Shown here in pieces: positions 374 to 28,532 of a stretch of DNA of 35,225 nucleotides. Position numbers and translations under genes: made by a program. The notes under the pieces were generated by a model. That model worked only from the letters and a program-made list of their open reading frames with translations. It ran no database searches and had not been told where the DNA came from. The DNA lies in IMG/VR virus record IMGVR_UViG_3300020430_000046, positions 1-35,225 of that record, one strand, 5' to 3'. Source of the DNA: a virus. The stretch's first letter is position 1. Each line of letters opens with the position of its first letter.

Positions 374-673
374 TCAACTATTTGGAATTAAACCTACGAC
401 ATCAAAAGGATTAACAAATTTATACTTCTCTTTGCCCCCATTGTTGTATCGGTAAACTACCTTGTGAATATCTCTGGGTGTTAAGTGCGAACCGGACTCG
501 CCGTATAATTCACCAAAATCTGTAATTTTGCCCGTGCCGGTACATGGGAACAAGTAGATCTCTGGTATTCTCATGTTGAGGGAGTACGTTGCCAACACAT
601 ACTCGCCAGTATTGTCATCTCTGTATACAAATTTTGTACCATTTGTGGCAATTGGGCAATGCATCTTAAGCAT
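374..673 (-). CDS. Hypothetical protein, 99 aa
   Basis: I do not recognise this protein. The sequence alternates short beta-like stretches (TKFVYRDDNTGEYVLATYSL) with loops, suggesting a small beta-rich fold. The ATG at 673 overlaps the upstream stop by 8 bases and has GGAGG six bases before it. Those bases are the 'L-E-V' codons at the end of the upstream xGDLV protein, so the upstream C-terminus carries this gene's ribosome-binding site. A second ATG at 664 is possible but lacks comparable spacing. Confidence 0.75.
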   Translation of the reverse strand: MLKMHCPIATNGTKFVYRDDNTGEYVLATYSLNMRIPEIYLFPCTGTGKITDFGELYGESGSHLTPRDIHKVVYRYNNGGKEKYKFVNPFDVVGLIPNS

Positions 674-869
674 TTACAACCTCCAAATTAGCGTATGAAG
701 TGCAGATAATTTTGCCAGTATTAAGCACAATGTCATAATACCCGGATCCACCATTGTTACCTATGACAACACCGAGTGCTGGTTCGGATATGAGCATTTT
801 GCCGTGCTTGGTTTGAGCGATATGCGCTCTGCTTGACACCAGGTCTCCGACGTTGATTTTAGTTTTCAC
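666..869 (-). CDS. Small SH3-like 'VGDLV' family protein, 67 aa
   Basis: It belongs to the small paralogous family of this window: N-terminal motif NVGDLV, a central G-V-V-I strand, an 'L-N-T-G' turn and a C-terminal L-E-V. This resembles an SH3/KOW-like beta-barrel; no function is known to me. It starts with GTG at 867-869, inside the last codons of the upstream gene (11-base overlap GTGAAAACTAA). The upstream gene's 'I-S-E-N-stop' is therefore written in the same bases as this protein's M-K-T-K. Confidence 0.75.
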   Translation of the reverse strand: MKTKINVGDLVSSRAHIAQTKHGKMLISEPALGVVIGNNGGSGYYDIVLNTGKIICTSYANLEVVNA

Positions 870-1017
870 TGATATACTCCAAGAACATTCCGGTTAACCA
901 CTCGATGCCGCCGTCTGTCCACACAACCTTGCATATACCTTCAGGTTTGTCAACCTCAACAACGACACCCGTACAATCCACGTTTTCTTTATCTCGCACC
1001 AAGTTACCAATTTTCAT
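859..1017 (-). CDS. Small SH3-like 'IGNLV' family protein, 52 aa
   Basis: The translation begins MKIGNLVRDKENVDCTGVVV and continues through V-V-W-T-D-G-G to end in Y-I-S-E-N. It has the family's three marks: N-terminal IGxLV, G-V-V-V strand, and W-x-D-G turn. The ATG overlaps the upstream TGA by four bases (ATGA), indicating translational coupling. GGAG inside the 'L-E-Y' codons near the end serves as ribosome-binding site for the next gene. Confidence 0.75.
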   Translation of the reverse strand: MKIGNLVRDKENVDCTGVVVEVDKPEGICKVVWTDGGIEWLTGMFLEYISEN

Positions 1018-1190
1018 GCTATTTTCTCACAATAACTTGTTACGTACCATTCAATGTCACCAGTGCAATCGAGTACCTTTAGTGTACCACCTTCTTTATT
1101 AACATACAATACCAATGCCGGGTATAGGTCCGTATTATCATTAACACAATGTTTGTATCTTACGACGTCGCCGACCTCAAAGCAATTCAT
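1014..1190 (-). CDS. Small SH3-like 'VGDVV' family protein, 58 aa
   Basis: It begins MNCFEVGDVVRYKH and contains a hydrophobic A-L-V-L-Y-V strand and a 'D-C-T-G-D-I-E-W-Y' turn, placing it in the same SH3-like paralogue family. I chose the ATG at 1190. The frame also opens upstream at a TTG (1208), which would add six residues and overlap the upstream gene. It ends in a 4-base ATGA overlap with the next gene. Function unknown. Confidence 0.7.
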   Translation of the reverse strand: MNCFEVGDVVRYKHCVNDNTDLYPALVLYVNKEGGTLKVLDCTGDIEWYVTSYCEKIA

Positions 1191-1972: not shown

Positions 1973-2196
1973 AAGACAATTCCCCTTCTCACAATCTTGA
2001 TATTCCCATTTAGGTATGCGTTAATGATAGAGTCTCTAGATGCTTTCTGGTAAGACGACACTGTTTTACCGGCACATTCTTCTATACCGGGACTTGTCAG
2101 CAAATATTCCCATTTGTTATTCTTTCTGCCTAGCAACAACCCGATGATAGCGGTGTTCTCTGACTGTATCAACATATCACCCTTTCTTAAATTCAT
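1969..2196 (-). CDS. SH3-like 'KGDML' family protein, 75 aa
   Basis: It begins MNLRKGDMLIQSENTAIIGL, so the G-D-M-L motif is at the family position, followed by an I-I-G-L-L-L strand and W-E-Y-L-L. The C-terminus (NIKIVRRGIVL) is longer than in the array members. Its ATG shares one base with the stop of the VWA gene (TAATG), so it is probably translated after it. Whether it works with the VWA/AAA pair is unknown. Confidence 0.7.
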   Translation of the reverse strand: MNLRKGDMLIQSENTAIIGLLLGRKNNKWEYLLTSPGIEECAGKTVSSYQKASRDSIINAYLNGNIKIVRRGIVL

Positions 2197-3401
2197 TAGT
2201 CTACCACCACTACCCTTTCATTAGTTTTAAAATAACCATATTCAGCACAACTCTGTGTAGTCATCCACATGCGCTGGCACCTACTCGGTTTTGGTTTTGG
2301 CGCCTCCATGTCTGTCAGTACAATATGACCGTCAAAATCAAGATTGTTGACGTACTCTGTTGGAGCATTAAAGCATGTCCCGCCAGACAAAACACGTTCA
2401 ACATTCCTGTTTTGACCCTTGCGCCACACAAACACCTTATCGGGGTCAACCCTTGTGTCGAATGGCACCACCGTAAATGATGCAACGCTGGACAATTGGT
2501 TCAATTCTGCGAAGAATTTTGATAACATCTCATCAGACACCGAACCTGACTGATCAATAGAGACTGCAATATTAGCAACCCTATTAGACTTTTTACCTGC
2601 ATGAACGTATGGATACCTACGATTAATCCTGCGTATGCTGCTGGTCTTGTTTGCTCTCTGTGAAGACTTTACGAAGAATCTTAGAACCTTTCGCCAGTCA
2701 ATTTTAGTCTTGAGACTTTCCATAATCTCTTTTTTGATACTCTGTGATACAGATCCCCATGAATTACTTCTGGCCGCCTCGCTTGCTGCATTACTAACAA
2801 TGTCCTTAAGTCGCTCATTTGCTACATCCTTTACTTCTTTTGGACAGTCGCCCCAACCACTATGATCATCAAGGGGTTCAAAATTACCACCTCCAGATGA
2901 AGACTCCGAAGACTCACTCGGGTCTCCGGTGGGTGTACCGTCTTCTGCGTTGTTTTTTAGTATTTCTTCTACTCTGGGAACATACCACTCTGCACACTGT
3001 CCAGGGGGCAAGTCAACAAAGTGATCCTTGCCTGGGATTAGGGCATCTTTTGGCAAATTATTAATATGTGAGTTAATTGCTAAGTCAGTGGCAATGTTCC
3101 ATATTTTTGCGCTGGTCTCACTACCCGTTATCCAAGGCGCACGGTCCGTGACATGCTTAAATATAATGTGATAAAATTCATGCATCAGAACAGCACACCT
3201 TTCAGGGTCAGTCAAACCCTGAAAGAAGTCTGGATTGTATAACATCTCAAATTGTGCCGTATTTTTATTGACCATGACACCCGCTGTTGGGATCCCATGT
3301 GATGCTCGCTTGTTAATTCTACGTGAAATTCCTGCGAAAAATGGTTCCGACATAAGCAATCTTGCTGTATGCATGTTAAGATCAAAATCAGTATTTTGCA
3401 T
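2196..3401 (-). CDS. Metallopeptidase-like/VWA protein (DUF2201-type), 401 aa
   Basis: Two parts are visible. Residues 1-140 carry H-E-F-Y-H at 74-78 in the context VLMHEFYHIIFKH, a HExxH zinc-site signature typical of the DUF2201 N-terminal putative metallopeptidase region. After a Ser/Gly-rich acidic linker (about 155-185), residues 277-401 form a von Willebrand A-like domain with MIDAS motif D-Q-S-G-S (283-287), a G-G-T loop near 340 and L-T-D near 362. Proteins of this type usually pair with MoxR-family AAA+ ATPases, and one lies directly upstream. The ATG is preceded by GAGG, and a promoter sits in the 68-base gap. Probably cytoplasmic (no signal peptide); substrate unknown. Confidence 0.8.
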   Translation of the reverse strand: MQNTDFDLNMHTARLLMSEPFFAGISRRINKRASHGIPTAGVMVNKNTAQFEMLYNPDFFQGLTDPERCAVLMHEFYHIIFKHVTDRAPWITGSETSAKIWNIATDLAINSHINNLPKDALIPGKDHFVDLPPGQCAEWYVPRVEEILKNNAEDGTPTGDPSESSESSSGGGNFEPLDDHSGWGDCPKEVKDVANERLKDIVSNAASEAARSNSWGSVSQSIKKEIMESLKTKIDWRKVLRFFVKSSQRANKTSSIRRINRRYPYVHAGKKSNRVANIAVSIDQSGSVSDEMLSKFFAELNQLSSVASFTVVPFDTRVDPDKVFVWRKGQNRNVERVLSGGTCFNAPTEYVNNLDFDGHIVLTDMEAPKPKPSRCQRMWMTTQSCAEYGYFKTNERVVVVD

Positions 3402-3437
3402 ATTAGTAACCTCAGTTAAAGCGTATCCAACAAAACC

Positions 3438-3466
3438 ATACTACAACAAAATAATTCTAAAGTCAA
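3438..3466 (-). promoter_or_regulatory. Sigma70-type promoter before the VWA gene
   Basis: On the minus strand: -35 TTGACT (3461-3466), 17-base spacer, -10 TAGTAT (3438-3443), 37 bases before the start at 3401. It could allow the VWA gene to be expressed apart from its ATPase partner. Confidence 0.6.
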
Positions 3467-3469
3467 ATA

Positions 3470-4537
3470 TTATTTCTTATCATCAGATAAGATTTCAACA
3501 AGAAAATCAGAGAAAGTCCTATTTGCAACCTTCGCCTTGTGAATTTTTAAAAGATTAACCTGCTCTGCGCCACCTGTTTGTCCAAGGAGTGACCACATTT
3601 TCATAACTACTTCACTTGGCATACCGGTCATCATAAACGCAGCGACGTTTACGATCTGCTCATCCGACAATTCATCCGAAAACACTTTCTCAGATTCAAA
3701 CTTGCTCACCAACGCTGAATAGTCATTAATGTCAAAATCCTTGACCTTCGAGAAGTCACCCCTGTTTAAGATGTCGTCCACTGTAACCTGTTTGTCAAAA
3801 TTAACAACAAAATCTCTGAACGAGACTGCTGCCTCAAAACCAACAAATGCAGTAGACAAGTGATATAGTGCATTGTGATCCTCGAACAGATCACCGGCAG
3901 ACAAACACTCATCTAATCTTTCCCAAGAACGCCGGGAAGGGTACACCTTGTTGGGTTCAAAGTCATCCTTATGCTCTAAGTGATCATGGTTTTGGTTAAT
4001 AAAATTCCACACTTCTGGGGATATATCTCTGTCTTTTGCCCAAGTCAACCAATCATCAACGCTAGGTTCGATGTCAAAAACAGTCCACCTGTCCAATTCT
4101 GCAGGGTCCATCTCGCCGACCTGATACTGAGAACCATGCTCACCACCATTGACCGCTGCGAAGATGATTGTATCATCATGCAGTACGTGACCGTTCAGTT
4201 TGCGTGAGTCGGTCAATTCAAAGATGCCCTGGCGGACTTCCAGGGTCGCACGGTCCACCTCATCGAGAAAAAGAATGACAGGATAATCACACGCAGACTT
4301 AAACCAGTCAGGGGGATTGAAAGTGGTACGATTATCTTCAATCGAGGGCAAACCCACAAGATCACCTTCTGTCATTTGTGATGCACGACGCTCCACTACA
4401 GTCATGCCAAGATGTGCTGCATACTGATATACAACAGTAGATTTACCAATACCGTGACGACCACGGAGCAATACTGGTTTGCGTACTGCGGTAACATGCT
4501 TGACCATCTTACCAAATGTCTTGAAGTCTACTGCCAT
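3470..4537 (-). CDS. MoxR-like AAA+ ATPase, 355 aa
   Basis: AAA+ landmarks are in order: Walker A G-R-H-G-I-G-K-S-T at 26-34, Walker B V-I-L-F-L-D-E at 87-93 (followed by V-D-R-A), and a sensor-1 Asn around 130 (F-A-A-V-N-G-G). Then comes D-P-A-E-L-D-R-W, where Arg150 could be an arginine finger. The length and C-terminal helical lid fit MoxR-type ATPases, which act as chaperone-like partners of VWA proteins. CAGGAG precedes the ATG. The VWA/HExxH protein follows after 68 bases. I infer that the two form a unit that remodels or assembles something; the target is not evident. Confidence 0.85.
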   Translation of the reverse strand: MAVDFKTFGKMVKHVTAVRKPVLLRGRHGIGKSTVVYQYAAHLGMTVVERRASQMTEGDLVGLPSIEDNRTTFNPPDWFKSACDYPVILFLDEVDRATLEVRQGIFELTDSRKLNGHVLHDDTIIFAAVNGGEHGSQYQVGEMDPAELDRWTVFDIEPSVDDWLTWAKDRDISPEVWNFINQNHDHLEHKDDFEPNKVYPSRRSWERLDECLSAGDLFEDHNALYHLSTAFVGFEAAVSFRDFVVNFDKQVTVDDILNRGDFSKVKDFDINDYSALVSKFESEKVFSDELSDEQIVNVAAFMMTGMPSEVVMKMWSLLGQTGGAEQVNLLKIHKAKVANRTFSDFLVEILSDDKK

Positions 4538-6116: not shown

Positions 6117-6326
6117 TTAAATCGCACCCTCATTAAGTGGACACAGAAACCTCACTTCCTCAATCAGTAATTCCTCTATTGAGTTAGCGTCCAGTCCGGT
6201 TGCAAACTCCATCTTCTTTAATGCCCTATCGAAACTAATCTCACGAGCAAGGATAGACTCTGCATATTCCGTTGCCATTTCAGATATTGCGCCAAGAAAC
6301 AAACTGTCGATTACTCTTGCATGCAT
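6117..6326 (-). CDS. Hypothetical helical protein, 69 aa
   Basis: I do not recognise this protein. It is predicted all-helical and acidic (SIEELLIEEVRFLC), beginning MHARVIDSLFLGAISEMATE. Its ATG lies 16 bases inside the end of the upstream 57-aa gene in another frame, consistent with coupled translation. It is the last gene before the promoter gap at 6051-6116. Confidence 0.65.
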   Translation of the reverse strand: MHARVIDSLFLGAISEMATEYAESILAREISFDRALKKMEFATGLDANSIEELLIEEVRFLCPLNEGAI

Positions 6327-6484
6327 TTATATTCCGCCTCTCTCAGCACGTTGTGTAAAGATGATAAGATTGCTTGACGATGGAAACCCCATGTGGGTGC
6401 TTCCAGTTTCTCAACACTAACAATCTCAGCAGTGATAATGTCCACCAAATCTGACATCTTTAACATCTTGTCACCGACTTTCAC
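6311..6484 (-). CDS. Helical protein with vestigial MKVGD start, 57 aa
   Basis: From the GTG at 6484 it reads MKVGDKMLKMSDLVDIITAE. The first five residues are the array's conserved start, overlapping S-E-S-R-stop of the upstream gene by 14 bases, but the rest is an unrelated helical sequence. ATGs at codons 7 and 10 are alternative starts. It looks as though the array's junction has been joined to a foreign body, marking the downstream edge of the tandem array. Confidence 0.6.
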   Translation of the reverse strand: MKVGDKMLKMSDLVDIITAEIVSVEKLEAPTWGFHRQAILSSLHNVLREAEYKCMQE

Positions 6485-6647
6485 TGATAACCTCCATTTG
6501 ATTTTTAGGGTTTGAGTTTATCATCTCCTTTGGTGTAATCCACTTTATCACCCTTTTCTCTTGAGTACCTGGTATTTCCCTGATGACGATGCCTACCCAA
6601 TGACGCCAGGTTTCATCCTTATATCTTACTAGATCACCAACTTTCAC
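6471..6647 (-). CDS. Array gene 1: 'VGDLV' SH3-like protein, 58 aa
   Basis: It starts MKVGDLVRYKDETWRHWVGI, has W-V-G-I-V-I and I-K-W strands, and ends Q-M-E-V-I-S-E-S-R. GTG at 6647 is preceded by AGGAGG; a second GTG and a TTG lie three and six bases further up. Both ends use the 14-base dual-coding junction (6634-6647 and 6471-6484). The codons for M-E-V contain GGAGGT, placed to initiate the next gene. Confidence 0.75.
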   Translation of the reverse strand: MKVGDLVRYKDETWRHWVGIVIREIPGTQEKRVIKWITPKEMINSNPKNQMEVISESR

Positions 6648-6813
6648 CACCAAACCTCCTGCTTTGATATACTAATTTTAATTGATGCTTCCGAAAAGAA
6701 TACTTATTGTCACCAATCAAAACCCAATAATCCGTGTTTGCTGGACTTGTCTTGACAATCAACCCTATGGCATTATTGGCAGCAACACACCGCACTAAGT
6801 CACCTACTTTCAC
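6634..6813 (-). CDS. Array gene 2: 'VGDLV' SH3-like protein, 59 aa
   Basis: The translation begins MKVGDLVRCVAANNAIGLIV and ends RRFGGESW. The family motif, an I-G-L-I-V strand and a W-V-L-I-G-D-N turn are present. The GTG start overlaps the upstream stop by 14 bases (6800-6813), and its own stop overlaps the next start by 14 bases. Here the C-terminus is G-E-S-W rather than S-E-S-R because one base of the junction differs (GTTGG in place of GTCGG). Confidence 0.7.
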   Translation of the reverse strand: MKVGDLVRCVAANNAIGLIVKTSPANTDYWVLIGDNKYSFRKHQLKLVYQSRRFGGESW

Positions 6814-6985
6814 TAACTACCTCGTATTCACTCATTTGATCCCAATAAATGTATCCGTCTTCAAGGATCTTAATTTGAGGGCGACGTGTCTTAATGTATC
6901 TAGTTTCAAGCAAAAGACCAATGCCCAGGCGAGGGGCGACCTCAAACTTACTCTTGCGATGTCTCACTAAATCACCGATCTTCAT
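6800..6985 (-). CDS. Array gene 3: 'IGDLV' SH3-like protein, 61 aa
   Basis: I start it at the ATG at 6983-6985 (MKIGDLVRHRKSKFEVAPRL), because this is the shared 14-base junction with the upstream gene; the frame stays open further upstream into that gene. Strands G-I-G-L-L-L-E and I-Y-W follow, and it ends Y-E-V-V-S-E-S-R. GAGGT in the E-V codons is the next gene's ribosome-binding site. Quite basic in the first half. Confidence 0.7.
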   Translation of the reverse strand: MKIGDLVRHRKSKFEVAPRLGIGLLLETRYIKTRRPQIKILEDGYIYWDQMSEYEVVSESR

Positions 6986-7211
6986 CTTCGACTCTCTTAA
7001 GGTCATAGTCCCACACATTTTCTCCGATGGTGCCATTCTGCCACAAAATCTTAAACATGCGATTCAACGCTCTGGATGTATGCTGCTCCTGAATAATGAC
7101 ACCATGCCTAAATCCACCTCCATAAACACCAGCGTTTGCCCATGCATGTGGACTGTTGTCCCTCACCATGTCACCCAACTTGAATCGGTTTATGCGTTCA
7201 TAATTATTCAT
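6972..7211 (-). CDS. Array gene 4: 'LGDMV' SH3-like protein, 79 aa
   Basis: This is one of the longest array members: MNNYERINRFKLGDMVRDNS gives nine residues before the motif, then G-V-I-I-Q-E, I-L-W-Q-N-G-T and an end in R-V-E-D-E-D-R. Its ATG shares one base with the upstream stop (TAATG) instead of the 14-base overlap, so the array changes phase here. Downstream the 14-base junction returns, but as ATGAAGATCGGTGA, which forces D-E-D-R. Confidence 0.75.
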   Translation of the reverse strand: MNNYERINRFKLGDMVRDNSPHAWANAGVYGGGFRHGVIIQEQHTSRALNRMFKILWQNGTIGENVWDYDLKRVEDEDR

Positions 7212-7357
7212 TAACTAATCACCTCAATCTGCTTATTATCTTGATGAACATCCTGCATCGTGCCACAACTCCATAGGATCGTGCGACGACCCAAAAGGTG
7301 AACCCTGACTACGACACCAACCCAATCAAATCGCCTTACTAAATCACCTACTTGCAT
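7211..7357 (-). CDS. Array gene 5: 'VGDLV' SH3-like protein, 48 aa
   Basis: The shortest array member, starting MQVGDLVRRFDWVGVVVRVH, with I-L-W-S-C-G-T and an end in I-E-V-I-S. I use the ATG at 7355-7357, because it forms the 14-base junction ATGCAAGTAGGTGA with the upstream gene; the frame is open further upstream but would overlap by nearly 60 bases. The stop is TAA directly after I-S, so this copy lacks the E-S-R tail and joins the next gene as TAATG. Confidence 0.7.
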   Translation of the reverse strand: MQVGDLVRRFDWVGVVVRVHLLGRRTILWSCGTMQDVHQDNKQIEVIS

Positions 7358-7541
7358 CAAGCAACTCCAAATGATAATCCCAAGTCTCGGTGGTGCTACC
7401 ACTTCGACACCAAAAAACTCTATATTGATTATTATCGTAGCGATTAATTAAAAAGTCAAGACTAAATCCAAGAATCATGCCAACGGGCGGGTTTTTTACG
7501 CCCTTTCTGCGAGTGCTTACGACCAAATCACCGGTTTTCAC
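7344..7541 (-). CDS. Array gene 6: 'TGDLV' SH3-like protein, 65 aa
   Basis: It starts with GTG as MKTGDLVVSTRRKGVKNPPV, then G-M-I-L-G and Y-R-V-F-W with a T-W-D-Y-H-L-E-L end and tail D-A-S-R. Both junctions are 14-base overlaps (7528-7541, 7344-7357). The L-E-L codons contain GGAG eight bases before the next ATG. The C-terminus W-D-Y-x-L-E resembles array gene 4 (W-D-Y-D-L-K), supporting common descent. Confidence 0.75.
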   Translation of the reverse strand: MKTGDLVVSTRRKGVKNPPVGMILGFSLDFLINRYDNNQYRVFWCRSGSTTETWDYHLELLDASR

Positions 7542-7704
7542 TGACTTTCTCCAGATCGCTTAATAGCATATTAAGTTTTCCACCGGGCCACAGAACAGTG
7601 GCAACTCCACCGCACCTAACTCCGGTGGTGGTGTGGGTGGCGACGACGAGACCAATCCCATCCGCTGCCCAACCTACCTGTACAACCAAATCACCGACTT
7701 TCAC
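7528..7704 (-). CDS. Array gene 7: 'VGDLV' SH3-like protein, 58 aa
   Basis: It begins MKVGDLVVQVGWAADGIGLV and continues with A-T-V-L-W-P-G-G-K and an end D-L-E-K-V-S-E-N-R. The GTG start shares 14 bases with the upstream S-E-S-R-stop, and its S-E-N-R-stop shares 14 with the next GTG (GTGAAAACCGGTGA). GGAG in the L-E codons precedes the next start. Unknown function. Confidence 0.75.
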   Translation of the reverse strand: MKVGDLVVQVGWAADGIGLVVATHTTTGVRCGGVATVLWPGGKLNMLLSDLEKVSENR

Positions 7705-7927
7705 TTATAACCTCCACTGTCATTTCACCTGGAGGGAAGGCATTGGGATCGAAAGAGTCCTTGTGATATGACTCCATTGAACCGTCGGTATATGATATTG
7801 TCCAGTGTCCGTAGCATAGTGGACCATATTCCGCACCGCCTGCCAGGGGATTAAAAGGTAGAAGGATTCCAAAAAAATCCTGGTCAAAACCATAGAAATT
7901 AACCTTTACCAAGTCACCAATTTTCAT
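7691..7927 (-). CDS. Array gene 8: 'IGDLV' SH3-like protein, 78 aa
   Basis: It begins MKIGDLVKVNFYGFDQDFFG, with G-I-L-L-P, W-T-I-S-Y-T-D-G-S (the family's W/Y-x-D-G turn) and an end T-V-E-V-I-S-E-S-R. Its ATG overlaps the stop of the 34-aa membrane protein as ATGA. GGAGGT in the V-E-V codons sits six bases before the next GTG. Confidence 0.75.
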   Translation of the reverse strand: MKIGDLVKVNFYGFDQDFFGILLPFNPLAGGAEYGPLCYGHWTISYTDGSMESYHKDSFDPNAFPPGEMTVEVISESR

Positions 7928-8028
7928 ACTATTGCCATTGACAGCATCACGGCGAATGCAATAACTATGATTGGAAACATTATGGCAATAATGATCTCCA
8001 TGATTGCAACTTTATCGTCATCTTTCAC
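7924..8028 (-). CDS. Small single-span membrane protein, 34 aa
   Basis: From GTG at 8028: four charged residues (MKDDDK) then about 25 hydrophobic residues including EIIIAIMFPIIVIAFAVMLS. It is inserted in the array: its start overlaps the upstream L-E-V-I-S-E-R-stop by 11 bases, with GGAGGT correctly placed, and its stop overlaps the next ATG as ATGA. A membrane mini-protein that has captured the array's ribosome-binding junction is the likeliest reading. Confidence 0.6.
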   Translation of the reverse strand: MKDDDKVAIMEIIIAIMFPIIVIAFAVMLSMAIV

Positions 8029-8218
8029 TGATAACCTCCAGTGTTTTATATGACCACAGTTTTTTTTGACCAACACCAGTGACAACGTGGATGTCTGGGT
8101 TCAAGAAGGGACTCCTATCATAACTCGGACAGTCACCCGCATAACCAATGCCAACCACAATGCCCACATGCCCTTGTCCATTCATCACTAAGTCACCGAT
8201 TTTCATATCTTGTTCCAA
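8018..8218 (-). CDS. Array gene 9: 'IGDLV' SH3-like protein, 66 aa
   Basis: It reads MEQDMKIGDLVMNGQGHVGI with G-I-V-V-G-I and ends Y-K-T-L-E-V-I-S-E-R. A start at codon 5 (MKIGDLV) is equally consistent with the family. It directly follows the near-consensus promoter at 8238-8265, so it is probably the first gene of the array transcript. The junction with the next gene is a degenerate 11-base form of the usual 14-base one. Confidence 0.75.
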   Translation of the reverse strand: MEQDMKIGDLVMNGQGHVGIVVGIGYAGDCPSYDRSPFLNPDIHVVTGVGQKKLWSYKTLEVISER

Positions 8219-8275: not shown

Positions 8276-8500
8276 TTATCGAACATATTTCAAATCCCGG
8301 CGGTCAAAATGCTTGTCGGCAGACCAATCAAACGGTGTGCCGTACGTGCTATTCATCCAGTGAATTTCGTAACTTTCCCAATGTGATACTCTTATAGACT
8401 TGATAACCCCAATGTCGCCGGGTTTAACCCACCTTGTTCTATGTAATTTTTTACCGGAAGAAGACAGTGTTACTAAATCACCAATTTTCATTTCTCGCAT
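8276..8500 (-). CDS. SH3-like 'IGDLV' family protein, 74 aa
   Basis: It begins MREMKIGDLVTLSSSGKKLH with G-D-I-G-V-I-K-S, Y-E-I-H-W-M-N-S and a basic end D-R-R-D-L-K-Y-V-R. It lies upstream of the array's promoter and so is probably transcribed separately, at the end of the preceding unit. ATG at 8500 has AAGGA before it; the ATG at 8491 would give the standard MKIGDLV start. Unknown function. Confidence 0.7.
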   Translation of the reverse strand: MREMKIGDLVTLSSSGKKLHRTRWVKPGDIGVIKSIRVSHWESYEIHWMNSTYGTPFDWSADKHFDRRDLKYVR

Positions 8501-15985: not shown

Positions 15986-16423
15986 TTAACTTACCTCAAC
16001 CAACTCAATTTGAAAATTTAGATCCCTACCTGCCAACGGGTGATTAAAGTCAATAGTGACCGTATCATCGTCGACTTCATTAATAATTCCTCGAACTGGT
16101 TGAGTGCCAACCTGACCTTCAACGGTCTGTCCGGGTGCAAAATCAAAATCATCAGGAAAATATTCCTTATTCACCTGCTGGACCCCATCTGGATTTCTTG
16201 GTCCATAAGCGTCTGTTGACGTGAGCATGACTGTCTTTGTCTCTCCGACCCTCATGCCTTTGACTGCATTGTCGAATCCAGGAATCATGTCGCCACCACC
16301 GACCGTAAACCCGATTGTTTCGCCCCTGTCGTACGAATTGTCAAAAACAGTACCGTCGGCAAACGTACCCTTGTAATGAACCCTAACTTCCCTTCCGACC
16401 TTTGCGATTGTTCTCTTACCCAT
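15986..16423 (-). CDS. slyD: SlyD-like FKBP peptidyl-prolyl isomerase, 145 aa
   Basis: Catalyses cis-trans isomerisation of prolyl bonds and acts as a folding helper. The FKBP pattern is clear: V-R-V-H-Y-K-G-T-F, D-G-T-V-F-D-N-S, M-I-P-G-F-D-N-A-V-K-G-M-R-V-G-E-T, then an insert (about 70-125) matching the IF chaperone domain, and N-H-P-L-A-G-R-D-L-N-F-Q-I, diagnostic of SlyD-type FKBPs. It ends at the domain without the His-rich metal tail of E. coli SlyD. AGGAG precedes the ATG. Cytosolic. It joins Hsp20, GroEL and ClpP as a protein-quality set. Confidence 0.92.
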   Translation of the reverse strand: MGKRTIAKVGREVRVHYKGTFADGTVFDNSYDRGETIGFTVGGGDMIPGFDNAVKGMRVGETKTVMLTSTDAYGPRNPDGVQQVNKEYFPDDFDFAPGQTVEGQVGTQPVRGIINEVDDDTVTIDFNHPLAGRDLNFQIELVEVS

Positions 16424-16904: not shown

Positions 16905-17800
16905 TCCAACAATCCCGACAGATTAACTATATTATTGCCTATTAGTTTATGGGACCACCGTGGGCGCTTCATTACATGCACATGCACATTCGATGGAGGG
17001 GTCTTAAATTTTGCCATAAACCTCTTTGCGTTCCTCCAGGGGGAGTCCCCCCTCACCACGAAAACCTCAACAGGTATCTTAGTATTCTTGAGGCACCCAC
17101 CCCAAGCATGATCCAACCACTCGCCATAAGAAGAATCGGACCAGACAATCTTTGAGGGTTCCAGTTTGCACAAGTCGCCTGTCATAGCAAGACGCTTTAT
17201 GGTGCTGCCTCCGGCGGAATGACCAACTATGCGATAATCTATTTTTCCTATTCTAAGATCCGAAATCGGAACAGTTTTAGTCTGCATCATCCAATGTTGA
17301 ATTAATTCCAACTCGACCTGCTTTACAAAACTAATAAATTGACCTGGTTTCATCCACAACTTGCTGTTTCTTTTCACTGGAGTCTTTGTGTGTACAGACC
17401 ATGGCATCTCTGGTATAATTACAACAAAATTTTTGTCAGCAGCGAGGGGAACAAACTGTTTTAACGTTCTATTTTCAAACGTTCTATGGGGCACGTAACC
17501 ATAGTGACCATGAAACCAGATAACCACTGTAAATGCCTTAGACAAGTCTGTTGTTCCTGGCACCCAAATTATAACATCTCTATGCCCCACTCTATGTAAA
17601 CTATCTTTGCCTCCCGATTTCTTTCTTATGTAAGTTACCGAACCAACATCACTAACTTTGTTGAGGGAATCAGACCACTCTTTAACAACCCTTATGTTTA
17701 CTCCACCTTCCCATTCGACAGAGTGTATTGCCTGTGATAACACCGGCGTTGACACAAATAGCGCAGACAATACTGCGATATAGTACTTTAATGATTTCAA
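16901..17800 (-). CDS. Secreted alpha/beta-hydrolase, 299 aa
   Basis: A signal peptide is visible (MKSLKYYIAVLSALFVSTPV, then L-S-Q-A). The body follows the alpha/beta-hydrolase order: oxyanion strand V-V-I-W-F-H-G-H (92-99), nucleophile elbow G-H-S-A-G-G with Ser195, candidate acids Asp222 or Asp252 (V-V-R-G-D-S), and His284 (R-W-S-H-K). So the Ser-Asp-His triad looks complete and the enzyme should be an active esterase, lipase or peptidase outside the cytoplasm. In a phage it might attack envelope lipids or exopolymer, but no substrate can be read. It overlaps the UvdE gene by four bases (ATG at 17800). Confidence 0.8.
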   Translation of the reverse strand: MKSLKYYIAVLSALFVSTPVLSQAIHSVEWEGGVNIRVVKEWSDSLNKVSDVGSVTYIRKKSGGKDSLHRVGHRDVIIWVPGTTDLSKAFTVVIWFHGHYGYVPHRTFENRTLKQFVPLAADKNFVVIIPEMPWSVHTKTPVKRNSKLWMKPGQFISFVKQVELELIQHWMMQTKTVPISDLRIGKIDYRIVGHSAGGSTIKRLAMTGDLCKLEPSKIVWSDSSYGEWLDHAWGGCLKNTKIPVEVFVVRGDSPWRNAKRFMAKFKTPPSNVHVHVMKRPRWSHKLIGNNIVNLSGLLD

Positions 17801-18735
17801 GTCGTGGACTCCTTAAGTTTTTGCAATATCTTCCTGTACTTCAGAAGTGCGGTCTCCTTCATCTTGCACTCCAACATCATATCATACTCAACACCATAAT
17901 TTTCTACAGGATTGCAAATAAAATCAGAATGAGCCTGGTGTCTAATTTTGGGGTCCCTGTACTCCTCGCGGCGTGATTCTGATAGATGAACAACTGGTTT
18001 TATATCTCCCCATGTTGATGCCGCCATCTTTAATGCCTCTTCCTCTGTTTGCCCACCGGTACAAAACTTATAATGATGATAATCAAAAACAATCGGTACT
18101 CGCACCACTTTGTAAATATATTCATACAGGTGTTTAACCGACCACATGCTTGCTTTATCATCGTTCTCAAGCGTGATCCTGTTTTGACAATTTGTAGATA
18201 ACTTCAAAAAATTACGACACCACCTATCAGCAGTGCCGGCAAAGTCCCCTCCATATGTACCACCAACATGAATGTTAATCTTAGCGTATGGCGTTTGGGG
18301 CAATCCCATCAGGTCAAAAACTTCCGAATGATTTTCCAACTCTTTAATTGTCTTACGTACCGTGTTTTCGTTGGGAGACCCCAGTACATTGAATGGTCCT
18401 GGGTGCGTTGTAATACGATGATCATTCAATTCTGCAAACAATCCTGCCTCGTTAAGATAGTAACAGATGTCTTCATAATCTGGTAAGTCGCTCAAATTGT
18501 ATTCCGAAGACCAAGGAAACAGATCCGAAGACATGCGATAAAATTTAATATTATTTCGTTCGTTCCATCTAAAAATAGTTAAAAGGTCACGGCAATTTTG
18601 CAATGCCAATTCAGATGCATATTCGATTCCACGTTGTTGGAACGTTCTCTTGATCATTGACCGATTAGTGGTTACTCTTTGTGACTTCGGGCGGGTCGAC
18701 AGATCCATGTTTATACAAGCATACCCAAGATTCAT
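17797..18735 (-). CDS. uvsE: UV damage endonuclease (UvdE/UvsE family), 312 aa
   Basis: A TIM-barrel enzyme that nicks DNA 5' of UV photoproducts. UVDE landmarks are in order: L-G-Y at 3-5, F-Y-R-M-S-S, T-T-H-P-G-P, N-I-H-V-G-G-x-Y-G-G, L-E-N-D-D, and F-D-Y-H-H-Y-K-F, with metal-binding His/Glu/Asp residues at each. Length matches bacterial UvsE (about 300 aa). A strong promoter sits directly upstream. It would repair the phage genome in sunlit water or in irradiated hosts. Confidence 0.92.
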   Translation of the reverse strand: MNLGYACINMDLSTRPKSQRVTTNRSMIKRTFQQRGIEYASELALQNCRDLLTIFRWNERNNIKFYRMSSDLFPWSSEYNLSDLPDYEDICYYLNEAGLFAELNDHRITTHPGPFNVLGSPNENTVRKTIKELENHSEVFDLMGLPQTPYAKINIHVGGTYGGDFAGTADRWCRNFLKLSTNCQNRITLENDDKASMWSVKHLYEYIYKVVRVPIVFDYHHYKFCTGGQTEEEALKMAASTWGDIKPVVHLSESRREEYRDPKIRHQAHSDFICNPVENYGVEYDMMLECKMKETALLKYRKILQKLKESTT

Positions 18736-20197: not shown

Positions 20198-20632
20198 TTA
20201 TTGAATGTTAATTGACAATGGTTGCGCATCGGGTCTTTGGGGCACCCTCACAGAAAGCAATCCATTTTCAAAAGATGCATCCGCTTTGGCAAGGTCAAGA
20301 TTGTTATCATAATTGATATAAGTGCGACTAAAGTTTCTTCTTGCGATGCGAGATCTCTTGTCATTATCCTCTTCTGCAGTGCCTGTAATGGTGATGGTTT
20401 TCTCTCCCGGTTTAACGTCTACCTTCAATTCCTCTCGTTTAAAACCCGCAAGGGCAAATTCCAAAACCGTGGAACCATCATCATCCCTGTAAACATCAGC
20501 AACAGGGTAACCCTTTGTTGTGGCGGTGATTGCGCCATCCATGAAGTGCTGATCGCCAAACAGATTGTCGAAAACTTCACTTAAATATTTGTGACCTAGA
20601 AGTCCTGGTCTATGTAATGCTATTGTATTCAT
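20198..20632 (-). CDS. hsp20: Small heat-shock protein (Hsp20/alpha-crystallin), 144 aa
   Basis: I start it at the ATG at 20632 (MNTIALHRPGLLGHKYLSEV), which has AAGGAGG eight bases before it; the frame opens 17 codons earlier without a good site. The alpha-crystallin domain spans about 40-135: P-V-A-D-V-Y, L-E-F-A-L-A-G-F, and the conserved F-E-N-G-L-L-S-V-R-V-P. The C-terminal S-I-N-I is the I-x-I anchor used for oligomer assembly. ATP-independent holdase in the cytosol. It follows a TTGACA-17-TATAGT promoter. Confidence 0.93.
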   Translation of the reverse strand: MNTIALHRPGLLGHKYLSEVFDNLFGDQHFMDGAITATTKGYPVADVYRDDDGSTVLEFALAGFKREELKVDVKPGEKTITITGTAEEDNDKRSRIARRNFSRTYINYDNNLDLAKADASFENGLLSVRVPQRPDAQPLSINIQ

Positions 20633-20706
20633 GTTATTATCCTCCTTATTAAGCAAGTTACATTTAAATGGGACATTCCTCAAAAAGCGTTTGTCCCATG
20701 ATCTAT

Positions 20707-22972: not shown

Positions 22973-24550
22973 CTATTGCTCAATAATAGCGTAATTAGTA
23001 GTCAGTAAGGTTCCGGATGCAGAAACCGCATTTCGAAGTGCCTGTATTGTTACTTTTGCAGGGTCAATAACCCCCGACTCATACATGTCAACCTTCTTTC
23101 CGCTAAGAAAATCAAACCCTACCGCCTCTTCCTCGTTTGCGAGGTCACAATCAATTTCCTCATAGTCAAATCCAGCGTTGGCGGACATCTGCCTTAACGG
23201 CGACTGAAGCACATCTGAGAATATTCCTGCTGCATATTGCTGATGTTCAGTTAAGTCAAGATCTTCTATGATGGTTGGCACCTGCTTTGAAATTCTATAA
23301 AGCGTTAACCCACCGCCAGGAACTATGCCTTGCTGCTGCGCTGAACGGACTGCCTCTAGGGCATCTTCAATTCGATGCTTTTTTTCAATCATTTCTATTT
23401 CGGTTGGTGCACCAACATTAATTATAGCAACCCCGCTAGACAACCTCGACACCCTTTCTTGAATTTGTTGCGCATCTACTAAAGATTCTGCCTCTTTTAC
23501 TTGCTGGTTCAAGTCCTCAATCCTCTGAAGCATATTGTCTGGGTCGCCACCGCCGCCAACAAAGATTGTTCCATATTTGGATATCTCTACTGTCTTGCAA
23601 ACGCCAAGATCGTTAATGTCAATCTGCTTCAGATCATCACCTAACATAGTTTTAAAATACTTTGCACCGGTTGCAATGGCGAGGTCTTCCATAATCGATC
23701 TTCGTTCTTCTCCATACTTTGGAGATTTTATTGCGGCGACCTTCATTGACCCCCTAACAGCATTCATAATGAGGGCAGAAAGTGCTTGCCCCTCTATATC
23801 ATCACAAACCAAAATTATGGGTTTCTGCTCTCGGGCAGCGACCTCTAGAACAGGGAGTATGGTCTGCACTGATTCCACCTGTGCGTCACATAAGAAAATT
23901 AAAGGATTTTCATACTTGCAAACATTTCTTCTCTCATCTGTAACAAAATAATTTGATGCGTACCCTGACTGAATCCTAAAACCTTCTACCAAATCAAGGG
24001 TTGTCTCCATCGATCGTCCATCCTGGATTGTCACCGACCCCATCTTTCCAACCTTATCCACCGCAGTCGCAACCAGGTCGCCAATTATAGGGTCATTGTT
24101 TGCTGAAATTTTTGCCACGAAGGCAATATCCTCAAGACTGGAAACTGGTCTGGAAGAGTTAGATATTTCAGCACAAACCAGTTCGCAAACCTTATCCAAC
24201 CCCCTCTTTACTTCCACCGGGTCGATTCCGCGCTCAATTAGTTCTACTGATTTGGAGAAAATAGAACGTGCCAAGATGGTTGACGTGGTGGTGCCATCAC
24301 CAGCATCGGAGTTTGTCTTTTCGGATGCCTGCTTAACTATCTCCACAGCAGCGTTCTCGAATGGATCGTCTAGAGTGACAAACCTTGCGACGGTTACACC
24401 ATCTTTCGTAATTATTGGTCGCTTATCCAAACCTTTTAAAATGACGTTCCTGCCTTTAGGTCCATAGGTTGACGCTACGTTGTCTGCAAGTTTATTAACC
24501 CCCTGCAGCATCAGGTGATGCAGTTCTTCACCATTAGAATATTGTTTCAT
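22973..24550 (-). CDS. groEL: GroEL-type chaperonin (Cpn60), 525 aa
   Basis: ATP-driven folding chamber subunit. Conserved sites are in place: Y-G-P-K-G-R-N-V (29-36), T-K-D-G-V-T-V with catalytic Asp50, G-D-G-T-T-T (84-89), the V-G-A-P-T-E-I-E-M-I-E-K-K-x-R-I-E-D-A hinge, and P-G-G-G-L near the intermediate domain. The apical domain is about 185-370. It lacks the flexible G-G-M tail of bacterial GroEL and ends T-T-N-Y-A-I-I-E-Q. No GroES is found in the window. It probably folds phage proteins or works with host or phage GroES. The ATG has GAGG before it and follows a perfect TTGACA-17-TATAAT promoter. Confidence 0.95.
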   Translation of the reverse strand: MKQYSNGEELHHLMLQGVNKLADNVASTYGPKGRNVILKGLDKRPIITKDGVTVARFVTLDDPFENAAVEIVKQASEKTNSDAGDGTTTSTILARSIFSKSVELIERGIDPVEVKRGLDKVCELVCAEISNSSRPVSSLEDIAFVAKISANNDPIIGDLVATAVDKVGKMGSVTIQDGRSMETTLDLVEGFRIQSGYASNYFVTDERRNVCKYENPLIFLCDAQVESVQTILPVLEVAAREQKPIILVCDDIEGQALSALIMNAVRGSMKVAAIKSPKYGEERRSIMEDLAIATGAKYFKTMLGDDLKQIDINDLGVCKTVEISKYGTIFVGGGGDPDNMLQRIEDLNQQVKEAESLVDAQQIQERVSRLSSGVAIINVGAPTEIEMIEKKHRIEDALEAVRSAQQQGIVPGGGLTLYRISKQVPTIIEDLDLTEHQQYAAGIFSDVLQSPLRQMSANAGFDYEEIDCDLANEEEAVGFDFLSGKKVDMYESGVIDPAKVTIQALRNAVSASGTLLTTNYAIIEQ

Positions 24551-24614: not shown

Positions 24615-25883
24615 TTATATTTTTTTCAAGCGCTTGCTTCTTGCCTTGTTGCTAGGCACGCACTCCAACCTGATTGGTAATTTTGCTGCGATGACGACGT
24701 CAGCAACCTCCGGTATCTCGCTTATATTATCTTTAACCGGTTCCATCTTCATAGAAAGTATCTTTTCCTCCATAGATGCAGACACAAGGTTCATATCACC
24801 CATCTCAGAAAGGTTGAAATAGAGATCTGCTGCGAGTCCATACTGAAACTTTGTGCCACCTGTGCCATATATACTTTTCAGGACCGGTCTATACTCCTTG
24901 TCTGGAATACTAGGTTCCTGGTGCAGTCCGGGACCTGAAATAATTACTGCTTCTTTTTTTCCGTCGTAGTCAAATTTTAAATTTCCTATAACTACAAACT
25001 TTATGTCCCCCTTGTATAAAATCTTACTAATGACATCGTCGGGCAGATGCCTTATAAATCCAACCTCGCTTGGTGTGCGACCAGAACGGATCACCTTCTT
25101 CCACTCCTCTTTCACATCCTCTATAAAGGACTTCAATTCAAGCAGTTTAATCTGAGATGATAGATTTCTTATGCCTCCATATGACCTAAATACTTGCCCC
25201 TTGTGTGAAATACCCGATTCAGGAACAACCTTACCATCCACATCGACGAAAACAAAGTCGGCACCTGGATCGTTTGCACGACCAGGTTTTTTGATGATAT
25301 TGGCAACGTTGTAAAAGACCTTGCCGCCAACAATAACAGTCCTAGTTCTGGTTCCCAGTCCAACTTTTTGTAACGCCTCCTGAAACTGTTGTAAAAATTC
25401 GTCCTCTATCTGGTCGAACCGACGACTAGTTTTAAACATACGCACTGAATCGCCTGGGGTTTTGCCAGAAAGCGATATGATCTCTTCATCAATTTTGTAT
25501 GCGCTTCCCGACTTTAGAAATTTTGGATTGGTGATACCTTTAGTGTTAACCATTCTCACCACATCAATGCCATCGTACTTGTTCTTTGTTACGTAAAATT
25601 CAAATTCCAAACTGTCGTTTTCCTTCGCTATCTGTTTTGCATATATTCTGCCCTTAAGATAGTTAGAAATCTGTCGGTCACTTGCTTTCTTGACGCTTTT
25701 GTCTAGGTTTTTTTTTAGATAATCGTATATTTTTCTTAATCTTGTTTTGGATAAGTGCTTCGGTTGCACGTAATACAACAAAATCGATCTCCTGACAACT
25801 GAAGTCATCTCATTGATTTCTTCTGGTGTCCTTACTGAACCCATCATGTCAATGATGTTATCAAGAGATTGGGCGGTGTTCAT
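24615..25883 (-). CDS. Hypothetical protein with nuclease-like core, 422 aa
   Basis: Opens with a helical region rich in Lys (MNTAQSLDNIIDMMGSVRTP). Around 205-240 it has G-A-D-F-V-F-V-D-V-D-G-K-V-V-P-E-S-G-I-S-H-K-G followed by F-R-S-Y-G-G-I. The D-x(n)-(I)-S-H-K pattern after a beta-hairpin resembles a variant PD-(D/E)XK core (Lys retained), and I recall similar 'ISHKxG...YGG' proteins in other phages. Activity is not proven by sequence. The C-terminus is basic (N-K-A-R-S-K-R-L-K-K-I). It overlaps ClpP by four bases. Confidence 0.55.
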   Translation of the reverse strand: MNTAQSLDNIIDMMGSVRTPEEINEMTSVVRRSILLYYVQPKHLSKTRLRKIYDYLKKNLDKSVKKASDRQISNYLKGRIYAKQIAKENDSLEFEFYVTKNKYDGIDVVRMVNTKGITNPKFLKSGSAYKIDEEIISLSGKTPGDSVRMFKTSRRFDQIEDEFLQQFQEALQKVGLGTRTRTVIVGGKVFYNVANIIKKPGRANDPGADFVFVDVDGKVVPESGISHKGQVFRSYGGIRNLSSQIKLLELKSFIEDVKEEWKKVIRSGRTPSEVGFIRHLPDDVISKILYKGDIKFVVIGNLKFDYDGKKEAVIISGPGLHQEPSIPDKEYRPVLKSIYGTGGTKFQYGLAADLYFNLSEMGDMNLVSASMEEKILSMKMEPVKDNISEIPEVADVVIAAKLPIRLECVPSNKARSKRLKKI

Positions 25884-26551
25884 AGATATTCATCTGCAAT
25901 GCCATACTTAATTGCATCCTCTGCAGATAAATAGGCATCAACGTTGTTTAAAAGTAGTTTTTTAATCTTGGTTCTTGTTAGTTTGGTACAGGAACAAAGA
26001 TAGTCAAAATACATGTCCTGTAACTCCTTAGTTTCCTTCATTTCATTTTCAATATTGGGGAAGGAACCGTGATGCCCACTGATTACGCTATGTAACATAA
26101 CCCTGCAATTTTTACCGATCTTTCTACTACCCTTGGTGCCGCTTGCAAGCAACAAAACACCGGCAGACATTACCTTTCCAATTCCGATTGTTTCAATTTC
26201 ACAGTCCCTCTTTACCATATCCATTACATCAAGTATTGAAAACATATCGGAGACCACGCCGCCATGAGTCGAAATATACATCTTAAATGGTCTAATGTTC
26301 TGCTCGGCGCTGCCGTCTTCCTTTTCGACAATCTCTTCCCTGGTGTGGTTAAAGTAAAGCATAGCGTGGATAATTTCTGACGCCATCCTCTCTCCAATAT
26401 CGCCATAACAATTAATAGTTCTTATTTCATCTTTATCATCCGCACGACTAGCGATGTTATTAATAATATATATCGGTTGTTTGGAATCTATCGTAACTTC
26501 TTCTTTTTTTTGCTTCTTCTTCTTTTTTTTGTCAGACGACTTTTTTAGCAT
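25880..26551 (-). CDS. clpP: ClpP-like serine protease, 223 aa
   Basis: Self-compartmentalising serine peptidase fold. Nucleophile Ser129 is in G-K-V-M-S-A-G-V, His154 in R-V-M-L-H-S, and a candidate Asp205 in N-N-V-D-A-Y-L-S. The spacings 25 and 51 are near the 25 and 49 of bacterial ClpP. The oxyanion strand is S-T-H-G-G-V-V-S-D. An N-terminal Lys-rich stretch (KKSSDKKKKKKQKKEE) replaces the usual leader. In phages such enzymes are either head-maturation proteases or Clp-associated degradation components. No Clp ATPase and no major capsid gene is seen here, so the role is open. Confidence 0.85.
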   Translation of the reverse strand: MLKKSSDKKKKKKQKKEEVTIDSKQPIYIINNIASRADDKDEIRTINCYGDIGERMASEIIHAMLYFNHTREEIVEKEDGSAEQNIRPFKMYISTHGGVVSDMFSILDVMDMVKRDCEIETIGIGKVMSAGVLLLASGTKGSRKIGKNCRVMLHSVISGHHGSFPNIENEMKETKELQDMYFDYLCSCTKLTRTKIKKLLLNNVDAYLSAEDAIKYGIADEYL

Positions 26552-27218: not shown

Positions 27219-27851
27219 TTACTTTTTATTTGCTTCGGTGATTCGCTTTGTGATACGGGTAGCTATACGTTCGGCGATCTCTTCCAACCCAGTCTCATCA
27301 AGACCTAAAGTATCAGTCTCTTCGAGATCCTCCACATCATCTGCAGGTGGTTCTTCTTCCATATCAATCTCTGGATCTTCGTCACCTCCGCCGCCTTCGA
27401 CAGCAGAAAGAATCTGGTCCAAAATATCGCGAGCAGTTCTTAGGGAATCGACGTCGCCTTCCGGAACATCAACCTCAACTTCCTGATCTTCTTCAGGGGC
27501 AGCATCCATTTCTGGTTCTTCGTCCTCATCGGCCATCATCATGCCTCGCTCTTCTAGATCTTCGACCTCTTCCACCTTTTTGCGGCCGCGACCTTCTTCG
27601 TCCTCTTTCTTACCTCGCATGCCTTCGTCAAGGTCATCCTCTTTCTTACCTCGCATGCCTTCGTCGAGGTCATCCTCTTTCTTGCCTCGCATGCCTTCGT
27701 CGAGGTCATCATTCTCATCGATATTTTCGTCAATATCTTCTTCTTCGAAGACATATGCCTTCTCGTGAATTGGTTGTAGTCCGGCCAACTTCCAAAATCT
27801 TTTAGTTGTTTGTTCGTTTAGAAGCGCCTTTTTCTTTTTTTCTTGTGACAT
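27219..27851 (-). CDS. Acidic repeat protein, 210 aa
   Basis: It opens MSQEKKKKALLNEQTTKRFW, then K-L-A-G-L-Q-P-I, a '[LI]-N-E-x-T-x-K-R-F-x-K-L-A-G' motif I recall at the start of acidic, capsid-associated proteins in marine T4-like phages. The body is dominated by Asp/Glu and contains three perfect 12-residue repeats (D-D-L-D-E-G-M-R-G-K-K-E) and a helical end. AAGGAG precedes the ATG. It is probably a structural, scaffold or core protein (inference from composition). An inverted repeat lies just upstream. Confidence 0.65.
   Translation of the reverse strand: MSQEKKKKALLNEQTTKRFWKLAGLQPIHEKAYVFEEEDIDENIDENDDLDEGMRGKKEDDLDEGMRGKKEDDLDEGMRGKKEDEEGRGRKKVEEVEDLEERGMMMADEDEEPEMDAAPEEDQEVEVDVPEGDVDSLRTARDILDQILSAVEGGGGDEDPEIDMEEEPPADDVEDLEETDTLGLDETGLEEIAERIATRITKRITEANKK
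27603..27710 (-). repeat. Three tandem 36-bp repeats in a coding region
   Basis: Three in-frame 36-bp units (27603-27638, 27639-27674, 27675-27710), nearly identical, encode three 12-residue copies of D-D-L-D-E-G-M-R-G-K-K-E. Only one or two third-position differences separate them, indicating recent expansion by slippage or recombination. Confidence 0.95.
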
Positions 27852-28206: not shown

Positions 28207-28532
28207 TATGCTTCGTCTTCTCCTCGCTCAATTAAATCGAAGACAAAGTCTACATCTTCTTCTGAAAAACCTAGATGATCGAGGACACTTGTCCCCTCTC
28301 TGATCTCTTGCGATGTCCTCTTTATCTTCTTTTTGCCGATTCGACCGATTCCCTCTTTTATCTTTTCTATAAATAAAACCACATTCGGATCGTTATTTAT
28401 ATAACCAGTAACCATCGACCTAAAGAATTGCGACTGCGTTAACCCATCTCTTCTCAGTTTTAGTATCAAATCCGCATGACGCTTATCTGTATCTGAGAAG
28501 AAAATCGATTTTTGTTGCTTTCCGTAACTCAT
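28206..28532 (-). CDS. Hypothetical regulator-like protein, 108 aa
   Basis: The central G-L-T-Q-S-Q-F-F-R-S-M-V-T-G-Y motif after L-I-L-K-L-R-R-D recalls a protein family of marine myoviruses usually found beside late genes; its role is unknown. The C-terminal V-D-F-V-F-D-L-I-E-R-G-E-D is acidic. The pairing with the sigma-4-like gene by a one-base overlap suggests joint regulation. It is four bases into the GMPR/IMPDH stop (ATGA). Confidence 0.6.
   Translation of the reverse strand: MSYGKQQKSIFFSDTDKRHADLILKLRRDGLTQSQFFRSMVTGYINNDPNVVLFIEKIKEGIGRIGKKKIKRTSQEIREGTSVLDHLGFSEEDVDFVFDLIERGEDEA

Follow-up and report, generated by a model that had tools for sequence, protein, structure and literature searches.

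Small proteins of predicted SH3 fold in uncultured, putatively T4-like marine phages are encoded in a reshuffled operon joined by a dual-coding, probable frame-safe recombination junction

The window analysed here is a stretch of 35,225 nucleotides of viral DNA (IMG/VR record IMGVR_UViG_3300020430_000046, positions 1 to 35,225). Between positions 6311 and 8491 it carries an array of small genes, transcribed in the minus-strand sense with the gene order running from 8491 to 6311, whose ends overlap in a short block that codes in two frames and that probably allows whole genes to be exchanged without damage to either frame. An earlier note on this DNA had described seven tandem genes joined by an invariant 14-base overlap. 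All seven overlaps lie exactly at the positions it gave, but the run consists of ten family genes; six of the overlaps join family genes, while the seventh (6471–6484) leads into a non-family open reading frame (ORF). The start M-K-[VIT]-G-D that the note had read at these joins is found at most of them, except that the junction at 7344–7357 encodes MQVGD. The joins at 8018–8206 and 7211–7357 are variants of the same design. When the window was scanned with RTGAAAGTCGGTGA, allowing up to three mismatches, 21 matches were obtained as compared to 6.3 +/- 2.5 expected, a number that none of 100 shuffles reached, and 10 of the 21 are the MKxGD-type starts of the array. The bodies of the window members show 18–38% identity to the first member.

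In its typical form, the junction reads CTG GAG GTT ATC AGT GAA AGT CGG TGA, which encodes L-E-V-I-S-E-S-R-stop at the end of the upstream gene. The GGAGGT within it is a Shine-Dalgarno site, followed about five bases later by GTG AAA GTC GGT GA., the M-K-V-G-D start of the next gene. The GGAGG core, absent from the earlier note, thus occupies the L-E-V codons just upstream of the 14-base overlap. The tail serine (AGT) pairs with a GTG start and a tail asparagine (AAT) with an ATG start, and the overlapped starts are exclusively ATG or GTG. The final R-stop results from reading the next gene's GTC-GGT-GA with a one-base shift; GTT in place of GTC gives W and GTG gives G, both of which are found. 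An overlap of 14 is the commonest because MKVGD, in the other frame, contains GG-TGA, and other followers produce overlaps of 8, 11, 17, 20, 23 or 29 bases. The junction noted earlier is therefore real, but its fixed length is only the commonest outcome: the true invariant is a Shine-Dalgarno site and a start inside L-E-V-I-[SN]-E, with 14 bases as the usual consequence.

Table 1. Genes and junctions of the array and of a second small cluster in the window
Feature	Coordinates	Strand	Remark
Family gene 1 (MKIGDLV...DLKYVR)	8276–8491	-	uncoupled to next gene; ORF start possibly 8500 (MREMKIGD)
Family gene 2, ends LEVISER-stop	8018–8206	-	S-E codons hold GTG of next, unrelated small ORF
33-residue hydrophobic ORF (probable membrane protein)	7924–8025	-	starts within family gene 2
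Family gene 3, ends VEVISESR	7691–7927	-	
Junction GTGAAAGTCGGTGA, overlap 14	7691–7704	-	
Family gene 4, modelled as five-strand SH3-like barrel	7528–7704	-	
Junction GTGAAAACCGGTGA, overlap 14	7528–7541	-	
Family gene 5, ends LELLDASR	7344–7541	-	
Junction ATGCAAGTAGGTGA, overlap 14, MQVGD	7344–7357	-	
Family gene 6, ends IEVIS-stop	7211–7357	-	TAATG one-base overlap with next start
Family gene 7 (MNNYERINRFKLGDMV...VEDEDR)	6972–7211	-	
Junction ATGAAGATCGGTGA, overlap 14	6972–6985	-	
Family gene 8, ends YEVVSESR	6800–6985	-	
Junction GTGAAAGTAGGTGA, overlap 14	6800–6813	-	
Family gene 9, extended tail, ends FGGESW	6634–6813	-	
Junction GTGAAAGTTGGTGA, overlap 14; GTT gives W tail	6634–6647	-	
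Family gene 10, ends MEVISESR	6471–6647	-	
Junction GTGAAAGTCGGTGA into non-family ORF	6471–6484	-	
Non-family ORF beginning MKVGD (MKVGDKMLKMSDLVDIITAEIV...)	6311–6484	-	start provided by junction
Second small cluster, three family genes (1014–1190, 859–1017, 666–869)	666–1190	-	overlaps 4 and 11

A scan of marine viral contigs with the junction DNA pattern yielded at least 119 stretches, and a profile search gathered 1,304 family ORFs from 119 loci and the window. A second set of loci was retrieved by N-terminal codons alone, requiring neither a ribosome site nor TGA, which avoids the junction bias. Among close pairs in the profile set, the distance to the next family start was -14 in 642, -4 in 87 and -11 in 19 cases, and in the N-terminally fetched loci -14 was again modal (74, as compared to 33 for -4 and 25 for -10). 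Outside the family, overlaps of this length are rare: of the long non-family ORFs that lie close together in the fetched loci (147 pairs), two pairs overlap by 14 bases and 24 by 4. More than 550 distinct bodies are present in the sample. A body-only profile, with the termini trimmed, recovered 105 of the 1,304 members, all of which were also full-profile matches; the bodies have therefore diverged strongly, and assignment to the family depends largely on the termini. Substitutions by codon position (896:709:2207) support the bodies being protein-coding.

The relation between the tail and the next start was assessed in coupling classes, defined by whether or not the last 45 bases of a gene contain the beginning of an ATG- or GTG-started frame of 35 codons or more. 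Among the genes of the N-terminally fetched loci, 71 of the 122 whose embedded start is in the relevant frame end in [SND][EA]xR, a tail seen in none of the 93 with four-base-type overlaps and none of the 103 uncoupled ones. In agreement with the earlier note, which proposed that the C-terminal S-E-S-R is forced by the next start, the tail is thus seen only with an embedded start; the observation that the note had said would count against this, a tail kept without the overlap, was looked for in these two classes, and the tail is gone from both. Tailed members had served as seeds for the profile, a bias towards finding uncoupled genes with tails, and these zeros are therefore conservative. As AGT GAA NNN CGG TGA always contains a start codon, the test rests on the missing synonymous versions, which were sought in uncoupled genes as TCN serine, other arginine codons, and TAA or TAG stops. 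The strand before the tail, L-E-[VIL]-[VIL], was found in 67% of the start-embedding class and in 43–52% of the four-base and uncoupled classes, and its retention at the latter level without an embedded start makes it partly a protein feature. The N-terminal G-D-L-V is 86–99% conserved per position in coupled and uncoupled genes alike. Since G-D-L-V and L-E-V-I persist without the overlap, they are also protein-level features of the SH3-like fold. The tail is a by-product of the next start, but the earlier suggestion that the junction is conserved rather than the protein ends is too strong for the family itself.

Codon choice on both sides of the junction reflects the double use of these bases. 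The strand glutamate is GAG in 669 of 698 coupled genes (96%) and in 98 of 111 with a four-base overlap, as compared to 61 of 109 uncoupled genes (56%) and 46% of internal glutamates, a preference that marks selection for the ribosome site. The tail serine is AGT in 476 of 491 cases. The constraint also acts from the upstream gene on the start codons of the next: GTG starts account for 60% of starts overlapped by a family gene and 13% of non-overlapped ones, Gly-4 is GGT in 100% and 66%, respectively, and Val-3 is GTC in 77% and 50%, with 20% for internal valines. A GGC or GGA codon for this glycine in the next gene abolishes the TGA, and translation of the upstream frame would continue, as in the tails ENRRFSKD, SRRPSKV and GRRSCNI.

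The earlier note had further suggested that recombination between junctions could add, delete or shuffle members of the array, and both neighbour switches and single-gene insertions and deletions were found at the junctions. Among 393 pairs of homologous members from different loci with at least 75% DNA identity, the neighbours differ on both sides in 141 and match on both sides in 124. Members that are 90–100% identical between phages adjoin unrelated genes, and identity collapses at the junction. Where the downstream neighbour differs, identity stays at 0.7–0.89 up to the stop, drops to 0.63 in the next five bases and to 0.35 by +10, and is 0.25–0.3 further on; where the upstream neighbour differs, identity sets in at the ribosome site and start. 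Family gene 10 of the window is 86% identical to its homologue in locus L022, yet the downstream gene differs, and the L106 homologue of the hydrophobic ORF at 7924–8025 sits after another family gene.

Differences between nearly identical contigs are placed in the same way. Loci L008 and L010 share 2,043 identical bases up to a start, the 20-mer ATGAAAGTCGGTGATTTGGT and 2,609 identical bases thereafter, and differ by one 176-base gene that is extra in L008, between two copies of ATGAAAGTCGGTGATTTGGT; L102 and L107 show the same arrangement with a difference of 175 bases. Related contigs differ by 42 indel-type events. In 26 of these, none of the four boundaries lies more than 25 bases from a family start, a zone that makes up 10.5% of the sequence; the repeats involved are 14–40 bases long. 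In their Val-3 codon, junctions of one locus resemble each other slightly more than expected (0.70 as compared to 0.62, reached in none of 500 permutations; for internal valines as a control, 0.287 as compared to 0.280), as exchange within a genome would produce. All of this points to exchange at short repeats, and the "self-propagating" character once proposed for the cassette is not borne out, no mobility enzyme having been identified, with no integrase search made.

About 190 members feed ORFs unlike the family, including those for IMPDH/GMP reductase, a gp32-like single-strand binding protein, a primase and a DNA methylase. In L187, the homologue of gp32 begins with MKVGEYD, while that in L058 starts otherwise. 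Similarly, an ORF in L072 (MKVGDLTDWLGF...) has the MKVG of the junction while its homologues in L055, L061 and L087 start otherwise, and an ORF in L049 likewise carries the MKVG start as compared to its homologue in L129. The window ORF at 6311–6484 is probably a grafted-start gene of this kind. Elsewhere in the window lies an IMPDH/GMP reductase gene (28529–29530), a relative of which in L082 is started by a family junction.

The arrays belong to a recognizable group of phages. Per array-bearing contig, 10–29 members were detectable (20 contigs searched). A gp23-type capsid gene scored above the cut-off in 14 of 21 array contigs, including every contig of at least 159 kb, and none was found in the 35 kb window fragment; a relative of the window GroEL, with 37–58% identity, was present in 16 of 17 array-bearing contigs. 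Given these gp23 and GroEL relatives, the group probably consists of uncultured T4-like phages, the large array-bearing contigs being T4-like as judged by gp23. A tblastn search with four probes, one of them a composite consensus, gave no significant match in 50,697 phage records, and among 84,980 species genomes the junction pattern occurred in only 12 stretches, 8 of which had further family members. The junction and family members were present in L218 and L224, two contigs of one Halobacteriovorax metagenome-assembled genome, and in contigs binned as Deltaproteobacteria (L217), Acidiferrobacteraceae (L222) and Flavobacteriales (L220, L225). These carriers are probably phage contigs within the bins and provide a weak hint at the host.

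An AlphaFold2 model of the window protein encoded at 7528–7704, built from a 58-member alignment, has five strands arranged as an SH3-like barrel (predicted local distance difference test score, 86.6). Its final strand, residues 51–53, is the L-E-V segment (L-E-K in this protein), and the tail beyond it has no predicted secondary structure. Profile similarity to the KOW domains of Spt5, NusG and L26 is weak, and Foldseek returned S4e, NusG, Tudor and chromo domains with template-modelling scores of about 0.5–0.7 and expectation values (E) of 0.04 or weaker. Pfam matches were scattered and unconvincing, with E no better than about 0.002 and each confined to one or two of the 58 members, and the PHROGs and PADLOC searches revealed no convincing named family. 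In a fold search of viral proteins (BFVD), the matches were small unnamed proteins with a best E of 9.5e-4. About 18 of the best 50 of these came from one accession block (A0A516M7xx, A0A516MBxx, A0A516LBxx), which suggests that many proteins of this type are encoded by a small number of deposited viral genomes. From the predicted fold, the size and the turnover, the proteins may be interchangeable binding modules for host proteins or nucleic acid.

Taken together, we consider it likely that the small SH3-fold genes of these phages form a reshuffled operon whose members are joined at a dual-coding recombination junction that is frame-safe. The last β strand and the two residues after it (L-E-V-I-[SN]-E) are written in codons that also spell the Shine-Dalgarno GGAGGT; about five bases past it the next start follows, as GTG within AGTGAA or ATG within AATGAA, and the ATG/GTG-AAA-GTC-GGT-GA of the next gene, read out of frame, yields E-S-R and the stop TGA. 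A block of 14–25 bases thus holds ribosome site, start and stop together. Because this block is near-identical at every join and at most starts, whole genes would be exchangeable without frame damage: exchange or annealing between any two copies would remove, add or swap whole genes, and a junction that crosses over with another junction or with an MKVGD start would keep both frames, the ribosome site and the stop. The same exchange would also graft the MKVG start onto unrelated genes. All of the embedded starts are presumably translated, with coupling that is at least partial, and the exchange is presumably driven by the phage's own recombination. More tentatively, and with less than even confidence, we propose that the junction is selected as a frame-safe recombination site. 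Through it, the phages would build operons out of a common pool of host-interaction genes with the SH3 fold, and the junction would spread by conferring its ribosome site and MKVG start on further genes, core replication genes among them.

Several points weigh against this reading. Start usage and junction recombination are both deduced from sequence alone, the repeats could be maintained for translation with exchange between them as a side effect, and overlapped members were used to seed the family profile. Near-duplicate contigs contribute some of the 42 events and 393 pairs, which are therefore not all independent. Individual cases may reflect assembly error, although a repeat of 20 bases is rather short to cause it. 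Finally, 18 of 136 members outside the 14-base class have E-V-[IV]-S-[EA] without a start codon, often with a TCN or AGC serine, and part of the tail is therefore conserved at the protein level. This last observation, together with the position of L-E-V as the last strand of the modelled barrel, speaks for LEVISESR being a functional C-terminal peptide whose overlap is a coincidence of codons. However, S-E-x-R is missing from the uncoupled and four-base-overlap genes alike, the post-strand residues lie beyond all predicted secondary structure, and the tails vary with the next gene and read on when its GGT is lost, which leaves this explanation highly improbable.

The junction might instead be kept solely to pass terminating ribosomes on to the next gene, with exchange at the repeats being incidental. 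The start about five bases after GGAGGT is consistent with this, as is the fact that GAG is favoured only when a gene follows, the four-base class included. The published optimum for coupling is, however, -4 to about +3, and larger overlaps lower coupling more than equivalent gaps (PMC12548453, PMC10666635). As -14 dominates despite this optimum, outnumbering -4 about sevenfold (about twofold in the N-terminal sample), coupling is a less satisfactory account when taken alone; it also leaves unexplained why homology breaks exactly at the junctions and why MKVG stands on unrelated genes, and we regard it as rather unlikely to be the whole account. Ordinary tandem duplication and divergence, with the junction as a relic and no exchange between phages, would account for the fold and termini common to the members and for their diverged bodies, but not for near-identical members beside unrelated neighbours in different phages, with the breaks at the junction, nor for the presence or absence of single genes between near-identical contigs, and is very unlikely. 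Hardly credible is a +1 frameshift at CGG-TGA that would fuse neighbours into tandem SH3 polyproteins. The next frame is indeed +1, and the context CGG-TGA-T/C occurs in 450 of the -14 junctions; yet the Shine-Dalgarno site is spaced for a start and too distant from the stop for a prfB-like shift, AGG, GGG or TGG precede the stop in many junctions, other stops occur, and the overlapped starts are invariably ATG or GTG.

The frame-safe junction that we favour shares features with several known systems. In T4-type phages, PeSL (promoter-early stem-loop) cassettes, as outlined in PMC4503421 (citing Arbiol 2010 and Comeau 2014), place a promoter and a stem-loop between small genes and mediate modular shuffling. 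Here too a short repeat lies at the boundaries of small genes of T4-like phages, and homology breaks there; but PeSL, by that outline, is an intergenic promoter and terminator, whereas the present repeat is dual-coding and combines a ribosome site with a start and a stop, and the 14-base overlaps leave no intergenic room for a promoter or terminator. By analogy, the junction would work like PeSL without being PeSL. Stop-start overlaps such as ATGA and TAATG (PMC6728339, PMC10666635, PMC12548453) likewise join co-directional genes with probable coupling, and as in these the downstream start here overlaps the upstream stop, with the ribosome site within the upstream gene. The known ones are mostly of 1, 4 or 8 bases and hardly constrain the proteins, while the present junction spans about 14 bases, places the Shine-Dalgarno site in a conserved strand, and serves hundreds of paralogues as well as unrelated followers. 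Integron cassettes resemble the arrays in the gain, loss and reordering of genes at a short conserved junction, but here the junction is inside the coding frames and the overlap leaves no room for attC between genes; neither an integrase nor an attC hairpin was seen, though no search was aimed at them. Among SH3-like barrels of the KOW, Tudor and chromo type (NusG/Spt5 KOW, S4e, PF24144 Phage_tudor), the likeness lies in the predicted five-strand barrel and the weak KOW similarity, and the difference in that the present proteins, of 50–80 residues, stand alone in arrays and lack a convincing Pfam match. In the open-licence literature, to which the search was confined, we found no published description of such a junction.

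The remainder of the window encodes a folding and proteolysis set, comprising a GroEL-type chaperonin (22973–24550), an FKBP isomerase (15986–16423), an Hsp20 (20198–20683) and a ClpP (25880–26551). A DnaE-type DNA polymerase III alpha with a PHP domain lies at 30925–34359, in a group in which the relatives possess T4-type capsids; the T4 polymerase is of family B. An AAA ATPase and a VWA/metallopeptidase-like gene (DUF2201), at 2196–4537, form a pair that is kept in several array-bearing loci. A UvdE UV endonuclease is encoded at 17797–18735, in addition to the IMPDH/GMP reductase mentioned above, and an acidic protein (27219–27851) contains DDLDEGMRGKKE three times in tandem, followed by more low-complexity sequence.

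The arrays hold a large protein family without a convincing named Pfam match, and no related array was detected in sequenced phages. The S-E-S-R tails and MKVG starts, even that on a gp32 homologue, stem from the architecture of the genes and not from the function of the proteins, a warning for the interpretation of conservation at protein termini. For the phages themselves, the junction would provide a concrete mechanism by which small accessory genes could be reshuffled without damage, as the homology used for exchange would itself be dual-coding.

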